A DNA stretch of 64,000 nucleotides, taken from NCBI RefSeq assembly GCF_022810765.1, contig NZ_CP094494.1, positions 1,550,001-1,614,000 on the forward strand. The letters are read 5' to 3'. How positions within the stretch are numbered: the first letter of the stretch is position 1; the number at the start of each line of letters is the position of its first letter. This DNA is from Winogradskyella sp. MH6. GTDB lineage: Bacteria; Bacteroidota; Bacteroidia; Flavobacteriales; Flavobacteriaceae. The position numbers and the translations under genes are program-made. The notes below the pieces were generated by a model. It ran no database searches, was not told the DNA's origin, and saw only the letters and a program-made list of their open reading frames with translations. Below are positions 14,517-20,210 of the stretch, in pieces.

Positions 14517-14554
14517 AAGAAATTTTGTTGAAACGACAACGTCTCGTAAAAATA

Positions 14555-17323
14555 ATGGATAAATATTCCTTTCTCAACGCAGCACATACAGCATATTTTG
14601 CTGACTTATACGACCAATATCTTAAAAATCCAGATGCCATAGAACCGAGTTGGCGTGCCTTTTTTCAAGGGTACGATTTCGGCTCTGAAAATTATGGAAT
14701 GGATGGTGAAATAGTAGAAGGTGTGTCTGCTCAAATTCCTGAACATCTTCAAAAAGAATTTCAGGTTGTAAAACTTATTGATGGTTATAGAAATAGAGGG
14801 CATTTGTTTACAAAAACAAACCCAGTTAGAGCTAGAAGAAAATACGCTCCAACTTTAGAAATTGAAAATTTTGGTCTTTCTAAAGATGATTTAAATACTG
14901 TTTTTTCTGCTGGTGAAATCATAGGTATTGGTACTTCGACACTACAGAGTATTATAGATCACCTAGAGAGCATTTATTGTGATTCTATTGGTGTAGAATA
15001 TATGTATATAAGGAAACCAGAGGAAATTCAGTGGATTCAAGAAAAACTGAATGTTAATGATAATCATCCTAAGTTTTCTCCAGATCAGAAGAAGAACATT
15101 CTAAGAAAATTAAATGAAGCTGTTTCTTTTGAAAATTTCTTACATACTAAATATGTTGGTCAAAAACGATTTTCTTTAGAAGGAAACGAATCTCTTATTC
15201 CTGCTTTAGATGCTATGATAGAAACAGCAGCTGAGTATGGAGTTAAAGAGTTTGTTATGGGTATGGCACATCGTGGCCGTTTAAGTACGCTTACAAACAT
15301 ATTTGGTAAATCTGCAAAAGATATCTTTAGCGAATTTGATGGTAAAGATTATGAAGAACAGATTTTTGATGGTGATGTAAAATACCACTTAGGTTGGACG
15401 AGTGATCGCGAAACCGACTCTGGTAAAAAGATAAACCTAAGTATTGCTCCAAACCCTTCGCATCTTGAAACTGTAGGTGCAGTTGTAGAAGGTATATCTA
15501 GAGCCAAACAAGACAAACCAGAAATTGAAGATGCTTCGCAAGTATTACCAATTGTAGTACATGGTGATGCTGCTATTGCTGGACAAGGCCTTGTGTACGA
15601 AGTTGTGCAAATGGCGCAATTAGATGGTTACAAAACAAACGGAACAGTACATATTGTAGTAAACAACCAGATAGGTTTTACTACAAATTATTTAGATGCA
15701 CGTTCTAGTACCTATTGTACAGATGTAGGTAAAGTTACCTTGTCACCAGTACTTCATGTTAATGCGGATGACGCAGAGTCTGTGGTACACGCAACATTAT
15801 TTGCACTTCATTTTAGAATGAAATTTAAGCGCGATGTATTTATAGACTTATTAGGTTACAGAAAATATGGTCATAACGAAGGTGATGAGCCTAAGTTTAC
15901 ACAACCATTGTTATACAAAGCAATTGCAAAGCACAAAAATCCAAGAGATATCTATGCAGAGCGATTAATTGCTGAAGGTGTAATAGATAAAGACCATGTT
16001 TCAAAAATTGAAAAAGATTACAAGGATAAATTAGAAGAAAAACTTGAAGATTCTCGTAAAGTAGAAAAGACTGTTATTTCTCCATTTATGCACGAGCAAT
16101 GGAAAGATTTTGAGCGTGTAGATGAAGAGGAAATGATGAAGCCTATTGATACAAAGGTTTCAAAGGAGCTTCTTACAGATATTACTAAGGTTATTTCTAA
16201 TTTACCAGAAGATAAAAAGTTTATCAGAAAGATTCAGCGTTTAGTAGAATCGCGTCAAACGATGTTTGATGAAGATAGACTAGATTGGGCAATGGCAGAG
16301 CATTTGGCTTATGGTTCATTGTTATCAGAAGGCTTTAATGTTAGAATTTCTGGTCAAGATGTTGAGCGTGGTACCTTCTCGCACAGACATGCTGTTGTTA
16401 AAGTAGAGGATAGTGAAGAAGAAATTATCTTACTAAAAAATGTATCAGACAACCAAGGGCAATTCAATATCTATAACTCATTATTATCAGAGTATGGTGT
16501 TGTAGGTTTTGATTATGGTTATGCCATGGCAAGTCCTAATACATTAACCATTTGGGAAGCACAGTTTGGCGACTTTAGTAATGGAGCACAAATTATGTTA
16601 GACCAATATATTTCTTCTGGTGAAGATAAATGGAAAACCTCTAACGGATTGGTAATGCTGTTACCTCACGGTTACGAAGGGCAGGGTGCAGAACACTCTT
16701 CTGGTCGCATGGAGCGTTATTTACAGTTGTGTGCAAAAGACAATATGTTTGTGGCAGATTGTACAACACCAGCCAATATGTTTCATTTGTTACGTAAGCA
16801 AATGAAGGCTAATTACAGAAAGCCATTAATTGTGTTTACACCAAAAAGTTTATTACGTCATCCTAAAGTAGTATCTACTGTAGATGAGTTTGCAAACGGA
16901 AATTTCCAGACGGTAATAGATGATGCAAGTGCTAGTGTAGATAAAGTTAAAACGTTAGTGTTTGTAACAGGTAAATTCTATTATGATCTTCTAGAAGAAC
17001 AAGAAAAGTTGGGTAGAGAAAATGTTGCTTTGGTAAGAATAGAGCAATTATTTCCATTACCAATAGATGAAATTAGAAACATAGTTGGTAAATATAAGAA
17101 TGCAGAAGATGTCGTATGGGCACAAGAAGAACCACGAAATATGGGAGCTTACAGTCATATGATGATGCATTTAGATGAAGCAAGAACATGGCGTGCAGCA
17201 AGTAGAAGGCCGTATGGTGCACCTGCAGCAGGGAGTTCGGTGCGTTCTAAAACAAGACATCAAGAAGTTATCGATTATGTTTTTGATAAAAGCAAGAATA
17301 ACCAAATAAGAAGTAAAAAATAA
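14555..17323 (+). CDS. sucA: 2-oxoglutarate dehydrogenase E1 component
   Basis: This 922-residue thiamine-diphosphate enzyme performs the decarboxylation step of the 2-oxoglutarate dehydrogenase complex in the TCA cycle. I start at the second ATG (MDKYSFLNAAHTAYFADLYD), the conserved N-terminus of the family, instead of ten residues upstream. The E1 core shows MAHRGRLSTLTNIFGK, the TPP/Mg loop GDAAIAGQGLVYEVVQM with NNQIGFTT, and the C-terminal half with PHGYEGQGAEHSSGR. sucB follows after 32 bp, forming the usual pair; the E3 gene is not nearby. Confidence 0.97.
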   Translation: MDKYSFLNAAHTAYFADLYDQYLKNPDAIEPSWRAFFQGYDFGSENYGMDGEIVEGVSAQIPEHLQKEFQVVKLIDGYRNRGHLFTKTNPVRARRKYAPTLEIENFGLSKDDLNTVFSAGEIIGIGTSTLQSIIDHLESIYCDSIGVEYMYIRKPEEIQWIQEKLNVNDNHPKFSPDQKKNILRKLNEAVSFENFLHTKYVGQKRFSLEGNESLIPALDAMIETAAEYGVKEFVMGMAHRGRLSTLTNIFGKSAKDIFSEFDGKDYEEQIFDGDVKYHLGWTSDRETDSGKKINLSIAPNPSHLETVGAVVEGISRAKQDKPEIEDASQVLPIVVHGDAAIAGQGLVYEVVQMAQLDGYKTNGTVHIVVNNQIGFTTNYLDARSSTYCTDVGKVTLSPVLHVNADDAESVVHATLFALHFRMKFKRDVFIDLLGYRKYGHNEGDEPKFTQPLLYKAIAKHKNPRDIYAERLIAEGVIDKDHVSKIEKDYKDKLEEKLEDSRKVEKTVISPFMHEQWKDFERVDEEEMMKPIDTKVSKELLTDITKVISNLPEDKKFIRKIQRLVESRQTMFDEDRLDWAMAEHLAYGSLLSEGFNVRISGQDVERGTFSHRHAVVKVEDSEEEIILLKNVSDNQGQFNIYNSLLSEYGVVGFDYGYAMASPNTLTIWEAQFGDFSNGAQIMLDQYISSGEDKWKTSNGLVMLLPHGYEGQGAEHSSGRMERYLQLCAKDNMFVADCTTPANMFHLLRKQMKANYRKPLIVFTPKSLLRHPKVVSTVDEFANGNFQTVIDDASASVDKVKTLVFVTGKFYYDLLEEQEKLGRENVALVRIEQLFPLPIDEIRNIVGKYKNAEDVVWAQEEPRNMGAYSHMMMHLDEARTWRAASRRPYGAPAAGSSVRSKTRHQEVIDYVFDKSKNNQIRSKK

Positions 17324-17355
17324 TTAAACCAAAAAAGGGTTAAATACAATAACGC

Positions 17356-18573
17356 ATGATTTTAGAAATGAAAGTGCCTTCACCAGGCGAATCAATTACT
17401 GAGGTAGAAATTGCAGAATGGTTAGTAGAAGATGGAGATTATGTAGAAAAAGACCAAGCTATAGCTGAGGTTGATAGTGACAAGGCAACATTAGAATTGC
17501 CAGCTGAAGCCAGTGGTACCATTACCTTAAAAGCTGAAGAAGGCGATGCTGTTGCTGTTGGGCAAGTTGTATGTTTAATAGATACCAGTGCAGAGAAGCC
17601 AGAAGGTAGTGAAAGTCCTGCTTCTACAAAAGAAGAAAAGAAGGAAGAAGCTCCTAAGGAAGAGGTAAAACCAGTTGCTACAGAATCTAAAACCTATGCA
17701 ACAGGTACTCCAAGTCCTGCTGCTAAAAAGATAATAGAAGAAAGAGGGCTAGATGCTAGTACTATAAGCGGAACTGGTAAAGATGGTCGTATTACAAAAG
17801 ATGATGCTGTAAATGCAGTGCCATCTATGGGAACGCCAACAGGAGGAAACAGAGGAACATCTCGTAGCAAAATGTCTATGTTGCGTCGTAAAGTAGCAGA
17901 GCGTTTGGTTGAAGCTAAGAATACAACAGCCATGTTAACGACTTTTAACGAAGTTAACATGACTCCAATTTTTGAATTACGTAAACAATATAAAGAAGAG
18001 TTTAAAGCTAAGCACGGAGTAGGTCTTGGTTTTATGAGTTTCTTTACATTAGCTGTAGTAAGAGCTTTACAAGAATATCCAGCTGTGAATTCTATGATAG
18101 ATGGAAAAGAAATGATTTCTTACGATTTTGTTGATGTAAGTATTGCTGTTTCTGGACCAAAAGGATTGATGGTGCCAGTAATAAGAAATGCAGAAAACCT
18201 AACTTTTAGAGGTGTTGAAGCAGAAGTAAAACGTTTGGCACTAAGAGCTAGAGATGGTCAAATTACTGTAGATGAAATGACAGGTGGTACCTTTACTATT
18301 TCTAATGGCGGTGTATTTGGTAGTATGTTATCTACACCAATTATAAATCCTCCGCAGAGTGGTATTTTGGGTATGCATAATATTATTCAGCGTCCAATTG
18401 CTGTAGACGGTAAGGTTGAAATTCATCCAATGATGTACGTCGCTTTATCTTACGATCATAGAATTATTGATGGCAGAGAATCTGTAGGTTTCTTAGTAGC
18501 AGTTAAAGAAGCTTTAGAGAACCCAACAGAATTATTAATGAATAATGATGTTAAAAAGGCTTTGGAATTATAA
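17356..18573 (+). CDS. sucB: Dihydrolipoyllysine succinyltransferase (2-oxoglutarate dehydrogenase E2)
   Basis: This 405-residue E2 subunit transfers the succinyl group to CoA. It has one N-terminal lipoyl domain with the lipoylation site DSDKATLE (about residue 43), an acidic/Ala-Pro linker (about 80-115), an E3-binding domain (about 118-150, [14 protein letters not shown]) and the catalytic domain (about 175-405) ending with the CAT-type active-site motif DHRIIDGRE. It is downstream of sucA with a 32-bp gap and is followed by a strong bidirectional-looking terminator. Confidence 0.97.
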
Positions 18574-18599: not shown

Positions 18600-18635
18600 A
18601 AAAAAGCGCAATTAATTACTAATTACGCTTTTTTT
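18600..18635 (+). terminator. Terminator of sucAB
   Basis: AAAAAAGCGcAATTA and TAATTaCGCTTTTTT pair with one internal mismatch and are followed by T-rich sequence on the plus strand. Confidence 0.85.
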
Positions 18636-18667: not shown

Positions 18668-18781
18668 TTAACTAAAAAAATTAACAGCTATATTCGCTGA
18701 GATGACTATAACAGAACTTACAATTAATAGAATCATAAATATTTTATCCCTTTTTGTAGTGTCTTCTTTCATTGTTTCCAT
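18668..18781 (-). CDS. Possible 37-residue single-pass membrane protein
   Basis: A short minus-strand frame encodes a 37-residue peptide starting METMKEDTTKRDKIF, with a charged N-terminus and one hydrophobic helix (about residues 15-35, MILLIVSSVIVIS). It starts 15 bp after the T-run of the second small-RNA terminator, on the same strand as the response regulator and the small RNAs. An in-frame ATG at codon 4 could also serve. I favour it over the antisense 31-codon frame because it has a clear membrane-protein pattern, but it is too short to be sure. No function assigned. Confidence 0.4.
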   Translation of the reverse strand: METMKEDTTKRDKIFMILLIVSSVIVISANIAVNFFS

Positions 18782-18795
18782 AATATTTCTTTTTT

Positions 18796-18834
18796 AAAAA
18801 AGCTCTGAACGTTTATTTCTGCCCAGAGCTTTTT
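18796..18834 (-). terminator. Terminator at the end of predicted small RNA 2
   Basis: AGCTCTG (18801-18807) and CAGAGCT (18824-18830) form a stem flanked by A and T runs, so it could act in both directions. On the minus strand it closes the second repeat unit. Confidence 0.7.
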
Positions 18835-18877
18835 GAGAATATAATCTGAGGCATTGATTAATAGCTCTGTAAAATTC
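18796..18877 (-). ncRNA. Predicted small RNA 2 of a tandem pair
   Basis: This is inferred from a promoter-like unit shared with the neighbouring copy (71 bp, 64 identical) and a terminator about 80 nt downstream. Boundaries are approximate; the start assumes a TATAAT-like box at 18889-18884. The RNA would contain GAGCTATTAATCAA (18867-18854), a perfect 14-nt complement of the sequence directly before the ATG of the response regulator upstream. A 13-codon frame (starting MPQIIFSK) is present, but the element's conserved part lies outside it. No experimental support is visible. Confidence 0.45.
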
Positions 18878-18924
18878 TAAATAATTATAATACAATACTA
18901 TACGTAACTTTACGTATTTTTTGA
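18854..18924 (-). repeat. Promoter-like repeat unit, copy 2
   Basis: It is 71 bp and matches 19009-19079 at 64 of 71 positions (54 of 57 in the 18868-18924 part), in direct orientation with a 155-bp period. It includes the 7-2-7 dyad and a TATAAT-like box read on the minus strand. Confidence 0.9.
18900..18917. promoter_or_regulatory. 7-2-7 dyad, copy 2 (candidate NarL-family site)
   Basis: ATACGTAACTTTACGTAT is two perfect inverted half sites (TACGTAA / TTACGTA) with a 2-bp spacer. NarL-family regulators bind 7-2-7 inverted heptamers with outer TAC...GTA. An orphan NarL-type regulator is encoded 168 bp away. Confidence 0.55.
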
Positions 18925-18934
18925 GTTTTTTACC

Positions 18935-18966
18935 AAAAAAAGAGCCTCGGAAGACTTCCAAGGCTC
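18935..18966 (-). terminator. Terminator at the end of predicted small RNA 1
   Basis: GAGCCTcGGAAG and CTTCCaAGGCTC form a near-perfect hairpin (18942-18966) followed on the minus strand by seven T (18941-18935). There is no T-run on the other side, so the direction is unambiguous. Confidence 0.85.
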
Positions 18967-19032
18967 AAATAATCCCCTAAGAACTAATTAATAGCTCGTT
19001 ATTAACCCTTAATTAATAACAGTGTAAAATTC
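18935..19032 (-). ncRNA. Predicted small RNA 1 of a tandem pair
   Basis: About 98 nt, no ATG-initiated frame of note. Predicted architecture is typical of base-pairing RNAs: a 5' stem-loop with perfect 8-bp arms GTTATTAA/TTAATAAC (18998-19020), an unpaired stretch carrying GAGCTATTAATTAG, then an intrinsic terminator. The unpaired stretch can pair with the site before the response-regulator ATG with 12 Watson-Crick and two G-U pairs, and a second block (CTTAGGG) can pair 6 of 7 with CCCTTAG just upstream. It lies 54 bp downstream of the regulator's stop, behind a dyad and a TATAAT-like box. The 5' end is a guess. Confidence 0.5.
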
Positions 19033-19079
19033 CGAATAATTATAATACGATACTATACGTAACTTTACGTATTTTTTGA
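19009..19079 (-). repeat. Promoter-like repeat unit, copy 1
   Basis: Direct repeat partner of 18854-18924. It begins 7 bp after the regulator's stop codon. Conservation is concentrated in the dyad and the TATAAT-like region and fades into the transcribed part. Confidence 0.9.
19055..19072. promoter_or_regulatory. 7-2-7 dyad, copy 1 (candidate NarL-family site)
   Basis: Identical to the 18900-18917 dyad. It begins 14 bp past the stop codon of the NarL-type response regulator and sits upstream of predicted small RNA 1. Confidence 0.55.
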
Positions 19080-19085
19080 AAAATT

Positions 19086-19709
19086 CTAGAGATAATCAGA
19101 ATTTTCTTTTGCCCAAATAAGTAGACTGTTTTGTTTGCTCTGCAATTTTAATTTCTTAATAATATTGCTTTTGTGCTTTTCTACAGTTCTTGTAGATACA
19201 AAAAGTAAGTCGGCAATTTCAACACCAGTTTTGTTTTGTGCTATCAGCCCAATGATTTTAGTTTCTGTCTTTGTTAAAAGCTGTAGCTCTTCAGGTGCTT
19301 CATCAACTTCTATGTAAGCTAAAAGCTCTGGGCTAAAATAGGGTTTGTCTTCAGTCACTGAAGAAATACAGTTTTCAATTTCGTCTAATGCAAACTCTTT
19401 TAATACATAACCATAAACACCTAAAGCTTTAGCTTCGTTATATATTTTCTCATCTTTTTCAAAAGTAATGAGGACTATTTTGGTTTTGAGGTTCGCCTTT
19501 TTACATTTTTCAGCAATTTGTAAACCTGAAAAAAAAGGCATTTTAATATCTAGAATAGCAATATCAGGTGTATGAGCTTTTATCAATGCCAAAGCTTCTT
19601 TGCCATTTTTTGCACTGGCAAGGACATTATATTCTTTTTCGTGTAAAAAGTCTTGAAGACCTTTTAGCACCAAAGGATGGTCATCTGCTATTATAATGGT
19701 GGGATTCAT
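19086..19709 (-). CDS. Orphan NarL/LuxR-family response regulator
   Basis: This 207-residue protein is counted from the ATG at 19709; an upstream in-frame TTG would add five residues but overlaps the probable ribosome-binding region. The receiver domain (1-120) has acidic residues D9/D10, phosphorylation site D54 (ILDIKMP), T82 and K104, so it looks phosphorylatable. The C-terminal LuxR-type helix-turn-helix (about 145-195) includes GVEIADLLFVSTRTVEKHKS. No histidine kinase is adjacent. It follows an aspartic-protease-like gene by 48 bp. A 14-nt element before its ATG is complementary to the downstream predicted small RNA, suggesting feedback control of its translation. Confidence 0.93.
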   Translation of the reverse strand: MNPTIIIADDHPLVLKGLQDFLHEKEYNVLASAKNGKEALALIKAHTPDIAILDIKMPFFSGLQIAEKCKKANLKTKIVLITFEKDEKIYNEAKALGVYGYVLKEFALDEIENCISSVTEDKPYFSPELLAYIEVDEAPEELQLLTKTETKIIGLIAQNKTGVEIADLLFVSTRTVEKHKSNIIKKLKLQSKQNSLLIWAKENSDYL

Positions 19710-19710
19710 T

Positions 19711-19724
19711 GAGCTATTAATCAA
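19711..19724 (-). promoter_or_regulatory. Candidate small-RNA target site before the response-regulator ATG
   Basis: Minus-strand TTGATTAATAGCTC occupies -15 to -2 relative to the ATG. The same 14 bases occur on the opposite strand at 18854-18867, and 11 of them (ATTAATAGCTC) again at 18987-18997, inside the two predicted small RNAs. Confidence 0.5.
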
Positions 19725-19757
19725 CTAAGGGAGATAAATATAAAAAGAATCTTTTGG

Positions 19758-20210
19758 TTAGGAAATTTCTTTTAGCTTTAAGTAAAGGTATTTCTTCTCG
19801 TAATCGATTATCGCTTTTCCTTTCTTTAAAATATCTGCACCAATAATGCCGTCCACAGGATCTGCATTATGATTAACAAGTCCAGTGTTAACGTGCGAAA
19901 GGTTAAAAAGAATCAGTGCTACTCTACTTTTTTTCCATTTTCCAATTTTTAAGTTGTTGGATTTAGAAATTTGAGTCGTCATGTTAGAAGCTCCAGCACC
20001 AACGGCTTTAATTTCAGAATCCTTTACTCTAAGGTTAAAGCGTTCTATGGCTTCAAAGCCAACACAGCTACTGGAAGCGCCAGTGTCTAAAATAAATCGT
20101 CCTTTAACTCCATTAATAGTAGCCTTAATTTCAAAATGATTAGTCTTGGTCAATTTGAGTTTTATCTTGGAGTAGCCTTTGTTTAGAAGAAAGTCTTTTA
20201 ACGTTTCCAT
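19758..20210 (-). CDS. Retropepsin-like aspartic protease family protein
   Basis: This 150-residue protein has one pepsin-type half: the catalytic triplet DTGAS at 42-46 (FILDTGASSS) and a later GIIGADILKKGKAIIDY segment that forms the psi-loop partner of the retropepsin fold. Single-domain retropepsin-like proteins need to dimerise to be active. No signal peptide is evident, so it is probably cytoplasmic. The response regulator follows 48 bp downstream on the same strand, hinting at an operon, but no substrate is apparent. Some members of this family may not be proteases. Confidence 0.8.
   Translation of the reverse strand: METLKDFLLNKGYSKIKLKLTKTNHFEIKATINGVKGRFILDTGASSSCVGFEAIERFNLRVKDSEIKAVGAGASNMTTQISKSNNLKIGKWKKSRVALILFNLSHVNTGLVNHNADPVDGIIGADILKKGKAIIDYEKKYLYLKLKEIS

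Follow-up and report, generated by a model that had tools for sequence, protein, structure and literature searches.

A candidate feedback loop between a NarL-type response regulator and two tandem small RNAs in Winogradskyella and related flavobacteria

The locus described here raises the question of why a 14-nt element lying beside the start codon of a response regulator gene should also occur, on the opposite strand, in the short region behind that gene. The window, by which we mean the whole 64 kb stretch of DNA analysed, comes from a genome of a single 3.5 Mb contig (G000) whose nearest named relatives are Winogradskyella. On its minus strand, a protease gene is followed by a NarL-type response regulator, two tandem sRNA units and a 37-aa ORF. 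The features needed for the argument are listed in this order.

19758..20210, minus strand: retropepsin-like aspartyl protease gene, upstream of the regulator (Asp_protease_2, 2.2e-13)
19725..19732, minus strand: upstream part of the regulator leader, UCCCUUAG, predicted in the duplex to pair with UUAGGGGA of sRNA2 after a 3-nt bulge
19711..19724, minus strand: leader element TTGATTAATAGCTC of the regulator gene, complementary to sRNA1 and sRNA2 (motif search, leader comparison, duplex prediction, shuffles)
19086..19709, minus strand: NarL-type response regulator, 207 aa, no adjoining kinase gene (ORF read from the ATG at 19709)
19056..19071, minus strand: palindrome TACGTAAAGTTACGTA in the sRNA2 promoter, where the regulator presumably binds (sequence, linkage)
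19025..19032, minus strand: -7-like element of the sRNA2 promoter, GAATTTTA, compared with the consensus TAnnTTTG
18936..19020, minus strand: predicted sRNA2, with 5' hairpin, GAGCUAUUAAUUAGUUCUUAGGGGAUU core and terminator (start predicted)
18942..18966, minus strand: intrinsic terminator stem-loop of sRNA2 (terminator prediction)
18901..18916, minus strand: palindrome TACGTAAAGTTACGTA of the sRNA1 promoter (sequence)
18870..18877, minus strand: -7-like element of the sRNA1 promoter, GAATTTTA (sequence)
18795..18865, minus strand: predicted sRNA1, with seed GCUAUUAAUCAA at the 5' end and a stem-loop and U run at the 3' end (start predicted)
18668..18781, minus strand: 37-aa small ORF behind sRNA1, with a single hydrophobic segment (conserved in relatives)
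18600..18634, no strand assigned: inverted repeat separating the small ORF from the convergent gene (repeat search)

The regulator matches the Pfam families Response_reg (5.3e-26) and GerE (6.1e-13), and therefore holds both the receiver and the LuxR-type HTH domain by which the NarL/FixJ class is recognised. These two are the only domains above the Pfam cut-off, which separates it from the sigma-54 activators, and its score against the UvrY/SirA/GacA equivalog PRK09483 (77.7 bits, cut-off 280) places it outside that group as well. Of the residues expected in such domains, the translated receiver retains the acidic pair, the T, the K and the aspartate within LDIKMP, so that phosphorylation by another donor is possible. 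The 37-aa ORF, with the hydrophobic segment METMKEDTTKRDKIFMILLIVSSVIVISANIAVNFFS, has no match in Pfam or NCBIfam; small ORFs like it lie behind the sRNAs in most relatives inspected and directly behind the regulator in several loci of the kinase type described below. The inverted repeat that follows is perhaps a two-way terminator, and genes resembling 2-oxoglutarate dehydrogenase E1 and E2 by eye (14525-18573, plus strand) converge on the locus. The E2-like gene also adjoins the regulator in the distant relatives L064 and L199.

Each sRNA unit consists of the palindrome TACGTAAAGTTACGTA, 27 nt, TTTACA and a short stretch ending in a stem-loop, and the two units share a 71-nt repeat of 90% identity. 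The starts were inferred from the flavobacterial sigma-A consensus TAnnTTTG at -12 to -5, as given in the excerpted text of PMC9723704, with the first T of TTT at -8; on this basis the sRNAs would begin near 19020 and 18865, with the palindrome spanning about -51 to -36. At this locus the -7-like elements have GAnnTTTA and so depart from the TAnn of the consensus. The spacing from palindrome to TTT is nearly fixed across units (27 nt in 126/131, 26 nt in 5). Both sRNAs carry a GCUAUUAAU-like seed, sRNA1 at its 5' end and sRNA2 behind a 5' hairpin; part of the sRNA2 seed falls within a predicted hairpin. Across 175 units, GCTATTA stands at offset 2-3 in 109 and further in in 41, and is missing from the first 110 nt in 25.

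Our own terminator scan of these 175 units did not discriminate (58/60 real units passed, as did 52/60 shuffles), and covariation was used instead. In 24 units of the GCUAUUAAUUAGUUCUUAGGG kind, hand-picked from the unit lists and drawn from many genera, 12 of the 14 pairs of the terminator stem have changed on both sides, with a covariation of 0.606 vs 0.347 in shuffles (0/500 shuffles) and at most 0.224 in slid controls. The 5' hairpin of Winogradskyella sRNA2 is near-invariant in 18 sequences chosen in the same way, and thus uninformative on covariation in either direction, and the 5' part of the units is far more conserved than the sequence of the terminator stem. At gathering score, Rfam, which includes the Qrr, OmrA-B and Rsm/Csr models, recognised only tRNA in the window and in 20 relatives' loci; raising E up to 5 gave 15 sub-threshold matches. 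The 21-nt core, with up to 2 mismatches, occurred in 0/104 genomes of other families in the order and in 3/15 of its own family. We are close to certain that the units represent a conserved sRNA family.

How, then, does the leader element relate to these RNAs? The exact 14-mer has two sites in the window, at 19724-19711 on the minus strand and at 18854-18867 on the plus strand, and a single A (19710) stands between TTGATTAATAGCTC and the regulator ATG at 19709. The element is exactly complementary to a minus-strand RNA from 18867-18854, that is, to sRNA1, which bears out the first-pass annotation of an opposite-strand match directly by the ATG. Its description of a shorter second copy, able to pair over 14 bp with two G-U wobbles, also held: on the plus strand at 18984-18997 (CTAATTAATAGCTC), both mismatches can be read as G-U. 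Within the window no site has exactly 1 mismatch and three, the second copy among them, have 2, and at up to 3 mismatches 13 were seen against 13.7 expected; the motif is not enriched and its placement is what counts. This unremarkable count is what would speak for a chance match in AT-rich DNA, which had been judged unlikely at the outset. We consider chance extremely improbable, as it is already contradicted by the retention of the element in relatives, and as only 2/20,000 dinucleotide shuffles of the regulator leader reach a 14-nt complement. None of 19,659 random 43-nt stretches of the window exceeds 12 nt, and when the leaders of all 63 ATG ORFs in the window that reach 80 aa are compared, none is complementary to the two predicted sRNAs over a longer run than that of the regulator (14 nt, next 11).

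The predicted pairing goes beyond what had been claimed, since with sRNA2 it extends into UCCCUUAG; in addition, both sRNAs lie behind an identical palindromic promoter and a conserved 37-aa ORF follows them. Predicted duplex energies with the regulator leader are -30.3 kcal/mol for sRNA2, possibly too favourable since the regulator mRNA may start near 19730 and leave part of the UCCC stretch untranscribed, and -25.3 kcal/mol for sRNA1. With its start placed at 18865, sRNA1 would retain 12 of the 14 pairs, and the sRNA2 copy lies internally. The position, strand and RNA lengths originally proposed, and the antisense idea itself, thus fit the locus and gain backing from the promoter, the seed, the terminator covariation and the conserved leader complement. 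Another long complementary stretch, which joins the sRNA1 terminator to codons around 126 of the regulator, was dropped as it is not conserved (12 loci).

The palindromic promoter is tied to the regulator well beyond this genome. A protein search returned 70 regulator loci, of which 66 are close relatives (the remote matches L067-L070 were left out), and palindromes with at most 1 mismatch, or two if symmetric, lie behind the regulator in 63 of these 66; the three exceptions come from Aequorivita (two) and Polaribacter (one). A single regulator can be followed by as many as four palindromes. The promoter pattern has 111 occurrences in 42/149 family genomes (reversed control, 2). Sixty-four of them, in 32 genomes, fall between -60 and 1500 bp downstream of a regulator homologue, where roughly 0.07 would be expected, 57 on the regulator strand and 7 on the opposite one. 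The remaining 47 lie elsewhere, and 10 of the 42 genomes hold only such unlinked copies. Two regulator paralogues of 38-43% identity (L260, L261) also adjoin palindromes, and no GCTATTAAT unit was found at these loci. Because of this linkage, we think that the palindrome is the binding site of the regulator, a site predicted from the DNA. Distant copies of the palindrome were observed in this genome in a related element of about 150 nt (L101, L105, L106 and L107, at G000 135330, 3208692, 3240237 and 3346699), sharing TTG-CTT after the palindrome, AACTT and ATT-AAAC-GAACT, and located upstream of different genes, one SIR2-like by eye. At L104 (G000 2150530), a palindrome stands well upstream of the -7-like TATGTTTG, followed by GCTATTAATCA, and might mark the start of an sRNA-like RNA or leader away from the regulator.

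Relatives also retain elements in the regulator leader that match the sRNAs. In 30 of 45 Winogradskyella-type loci (L001-L047 without L036 and L044), TTAATAGC is found no more than 25 nt from the start, compared with 1 of 5220 upstream 25-nt windows from the same loci; 15 leaders are without it near the start. Across genera, it is present in 18/49 sRNA-bearing loci (0.4 expected) and 0/14 others, TCCCT, complementary to AGGGA, in 21/49 (4.1 expected) and 0/14, and CCCT in 24/49 (10.1 expected) and 2/14; as the loci share ancestry, these counts measure conservation and not independent events. A match of at least 9 nt to the locus's own sRNAs occurs in 18 of 35 genus-level leaders (null mean 3.2, maximum 11) and is missing in 17, and the longest complement summed over 31 loci reaches 257 against a null of 203.2 (sd 5.9). 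By RNAduplex energy, only 18/63 loci fall within the best 5% of shuffles. The feature expected of an OmrA/B-type system, sRNAs complementary to the regulator mRNA around its start, is thus found in the window and, with gaps, in relatives.

A lack of covariation between the copies had been named as a ground for refutation, and here the outcome is divided: complementarity is kept across relatives, and pairing with own sRNAs is not above that with foreign ones (8.61 vs 8.35 over 38 loci, p=0.40, no trend). Among seven loci inspected individually, which include L177, L190, L058 and L048, the leaders that pair clearly better with their own sRNAs are those of Bizionia (L058 and L190, ACTAACTAA against UUAGUUAGUU) and of L177 (AAAAUCCCUC); L048 was rejected as a case of co-change as its leader matches foreign sRNAs better. 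Where both elements are present, the order is AATAG then CCCT in 11 loci and the reverse in 6, which argues against one continuous duplex as a general rule; two separate leader sites, perhaps one per sRNA copy, fit better. A -7-like motif begins 26-42 nt before the ATG in 50/63 leaders (8.8 in shuffles), which suggests a regulator 5' UTR of about 14-30 nt (21 here), scarcely longer than the target site.

The presence of the sRNAs follows the gene upstream of the regulator. This was examined in 63 loci, almost one per genus, made up of the window, the 29 regulators ranking next after that of the window (L175-L203), 13 loci fetched for an adjacent palindrome (11 regulators and 2 paralogues; a fourteenth, L262, was dropped for want of a regulator match) and, from the 36 regulators left over that have no exact palindrome beside them, 20 taken mainly from the upper part of the score range. 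In all 63, the gene before the regulator encodes a protease or a histidine kinase, the kinases being typed by Pfam in L064 (TPR, HisKA_3, HATPase_c) and by scripted short motifs in other loci. A promoter-proximal seed is present in 47/47 protease-type loci vs 2/16 kinase-type loci (L199, and L260 by a loose match). Even among the 20 loci without an exact palindrome, all 16 of protease type have the seed, often behind variants such as TACGTAGAAGTGCGTA. Altogether, it lies downstream of 48/62 regulators, compared with 3.4 in shuffled stretches and 2 on the other strand. In L193-L195, which are of the kinase type, a promoter with a near-palindrome runs straight into a small membrane ORF, with no sRNA in between. 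A search of this genome for a cognate kinase elsewhere gave no close orthologue (best match, 33% identity over 222 residues). L199 has a kinase gene as well as the regulator, a single sRNA unit and a small membrane ORF, and is a possible evolutionary intermediate. It is conceivable, though doubtful, that in Flavobacteriaceae the kinase gene was lost from an ancestral kinase-regulator operon, that a family of tandem, Hfq-independent, self-activated sRNAs came to set the output of the regulator in its place by limiting regulator synthesis, that these sRNAs derive from the 5' leader of a tiny membrane protein gene, the first target of the regulator, and that L199 is the surviving intermediate.

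The elements, their conservation and their linkage to the regulator were computed directly. From them we infer transcription of the sRNAs, their activation by the regulator, pairing in the cell and repression. The NarL-type regulator, with no neighbouring kinase, would bind TACGTARNNYTACGTA, centred about 43 bp upstream of the sRNA starts, and in its active form would turn on both tandem sRNA genes just behind it, the sRNA1 promoter also reading toward the small membrane protein. The sRNAs carry the GCUAUUAAU seed, with an AGGGG segment besides in sRNA2, and these would pair with the very short 5' UTR of the regulator, at AUUAAUAGC and, where present, at UCCCU. Pairing beside the start codon would block translation initiation and limit the regulator by negative feedback. 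On sequence evidence, this loop as a whole, in which the regulator activates sRNAs that pair with its own 5' UTR and repress it, is probable. Weighing against it are the leaders without a match, the duplex energies and the parity with foreign sRNAs described above, the variable order of the leader elements, the position of the sRNA2 seed partly inside a predicted hairpin, the 66/175 units that depart from GCTATTA at offset 2-3, the GAnn of the -7-like elements, and a search of this genome that gave no Hfq. Given the conserved sRNA family, control by this regulator is very likely, and given both, direct repression of the regulator is likely to a scarcely lower degree.

The alternative to be taken most seriously is that the sRNAs are real and activated by the regulator and act mainly on other mRNAs, the match in the regulator leader being a relic or a minor side effect. 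Conservation of the sRNA core around GCTATTAATTAGTTCTTAGGG beyond the need of any one leader would agree with this, as would the 17 of 35 leaders lacking a 9-nt match and the lack of any advantage of own over foreign pairing. In addition, CCCT with ATTAATAGC before an ATG has 28 matches in 22/41 genus genomes (reversed control, 1), of which 6 are at the regulator and 7 at another gene, which comes second in a sigma/anti-sigma-like pair. That gene has no match in this genome at E 1e-30 (it is present in 14/41 genus genomes), and its motif overlaps the last codons and double stops of the sigma gene, leaving the sigma/anti-sigma-like target candidate ambiguous. Further against a main role on other mRNAs, the leader elements are enriched where sRNAs are present, TTAATAGC and TCCCT being absent from the 14 loci without sRNA, and the complement of the 21-nt core, with up to 3 mismatches, occurs in this genome only at the sRNA itself. 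We therefore regard this explanation as unlikely. The sigma/anti-sigma-like candidate is the pair at L207 and its relatives, where a sigma-70-like gene (Sigma70_r2) precedes a gene for a TPR protein and, in 7 genomes, the region around the start of the latter is similar to the sRNA complement. Another recurring near-match was seen at the end of a ribosomal protein gene, S12 by eye (L269). The pattern ATTAATAGCN0-12ATG has 30 matches in this genome vs 3 for its reverse, four of them before an ORF of at least 200 aa (names by eye): the regulator, a GH2 glycosidase-like gene, a FabH-like gene and L118. Only the regulator is claimed as a target among these four; in the GH2 glycosidase-like case the element overlaps the last codons of the upstream gene, and at L118 the open frame begins upstream of the element, which may be coding.

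It is improbable that the units are simply 5' leaders or attenuators of the small membrane protein genes, with no action in trans. Such an arrangement is suggested by the place of sRNA1 directly upstream of the 37-aa ORF, by the first unit preceding a similar small ORF in some other genera, and by the sRNA-less promoters of L193-L195; it fits poorly with sRNA2, which ends in a terminator followed by a promoter and not by an ORF, with the presence of up to four palindromes per regulator, and with a 5' part so much better conserved than the terminator stem. In the UvrY and GacA pathways, CsrB or RsmZ titrate CsrA, and by analogy the sRNAs could be decoys for an RNA-binding protein via their AGGG motifs. 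A NarL-type regulator with a palindromic site, and AGGG at positions predicted to be unpaired or in loops, are what such a decoy would have; yet no CsrA was found in this genome, and titration would leave the GCUAUUAAU seed and the matching leader elements unexplained, which makes this reading very improbable. The reading that we prefer remains the feedback loop onto the regulator's own leader.

This loop can be compared with several known systems. The OmrA/B genes are located away from ompR, unlike the sRNA genes here, which adjoin the NarL-type regulator. GacA belongs to the NarL family, and RsmX/Y/Z and CsrB/C bind CsrA/RsmA, a partner that distinguishes the Gac/Rsm systems from our locus, as CsrA had no match in this genome (the search control was positive in 3/14 named genomes). 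The likeness to GacA/UvrY-RsmX/Y/Z and CsrB/C lies in a palindromic site ahead of several sRNA genes, which the excerpted text of PMC2375449 describes as an upstream activating sequence and potential GacA site. According to the available part of PMC12692685, OmrA and OmrB are duplicated homologous sRNAs that are activated by OmpR, pair through a conserved 5' end and repress ompR-envZ, with a predicted pairing in Yersinia that overlaps the ribosome-binding site. Our locus resembles this system in its two homologous sRNAs, which have in common a pairing segment close to the 5' end (behind the 5' hairpin in sRNA2), in the predicted response-regulator activation and 5' pairing, and in the predicted repression of their own regulator. 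It differs in that OmpR has the linked kinase EnvZ and that OmrA/B use Hfq, as stated in the same text (PMC12692685); neither was found here, the search for Hfq giving no match in this genome (control positive in 5/14).

The Qrr sRNAs of Vibrio are also several, activated by LuxO and repress luxO translation, and they act with Hfq downstream of a sigma-54-dependent activator, in the part of PMC3482212 available; regulator class, promoter and sequence differ from ours. The parallel with OmrA/B-OmpR is as close as that with LuxO-Qrr, or closer. We conclude that the locus would work like the OmrA/B and Qrr loops and, by regulator class and Rfam, is a member of neither. In Flavobacterium psychrophilum, Rfp18 and other sRNAs have predicted mRNA targets, for Rfp18 metalloprotease targets, and the excerpted text names no regulator feedback (PMC9723704); Rfp18 is set apart here by this description and not by sequence. 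In rhizobia, NtrBC and the sRNA NfeR1 are also reported to form a loop (PMC10746234). For Bacteroidota, the titles and abstract openings among the matches listed in the open-access literature, which takes in few subscription papers, contained no regulator-sRNA loop, and the portion of the B. thetaiotaomicron atlas at hand (PMC10994844) does not mention 'response regulator'.

In conclusion, conservation across genomes makes it likely that a self-limiting loop of this kind recurs across many genera of marine flavobacteria. The best-known feedback loops between regulators and sRNAs are those of Proteobacteria, which involve Hfq, and to our knowledge few Bacteroidota sRNAs have established targets. 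If the loop is true, it would provide Bacteroidota with a defined sRNA, promoter and target, all within about 1.2 kb, in which to study sRNA pairing in the absence of Hfq and the control of a regulator that lacks its kinase. The tie between the sRNAs and the missing neighbouring kinase gene (47/47 vs 2/16 in the sampled loci) makes the evolutionary question a testable one.
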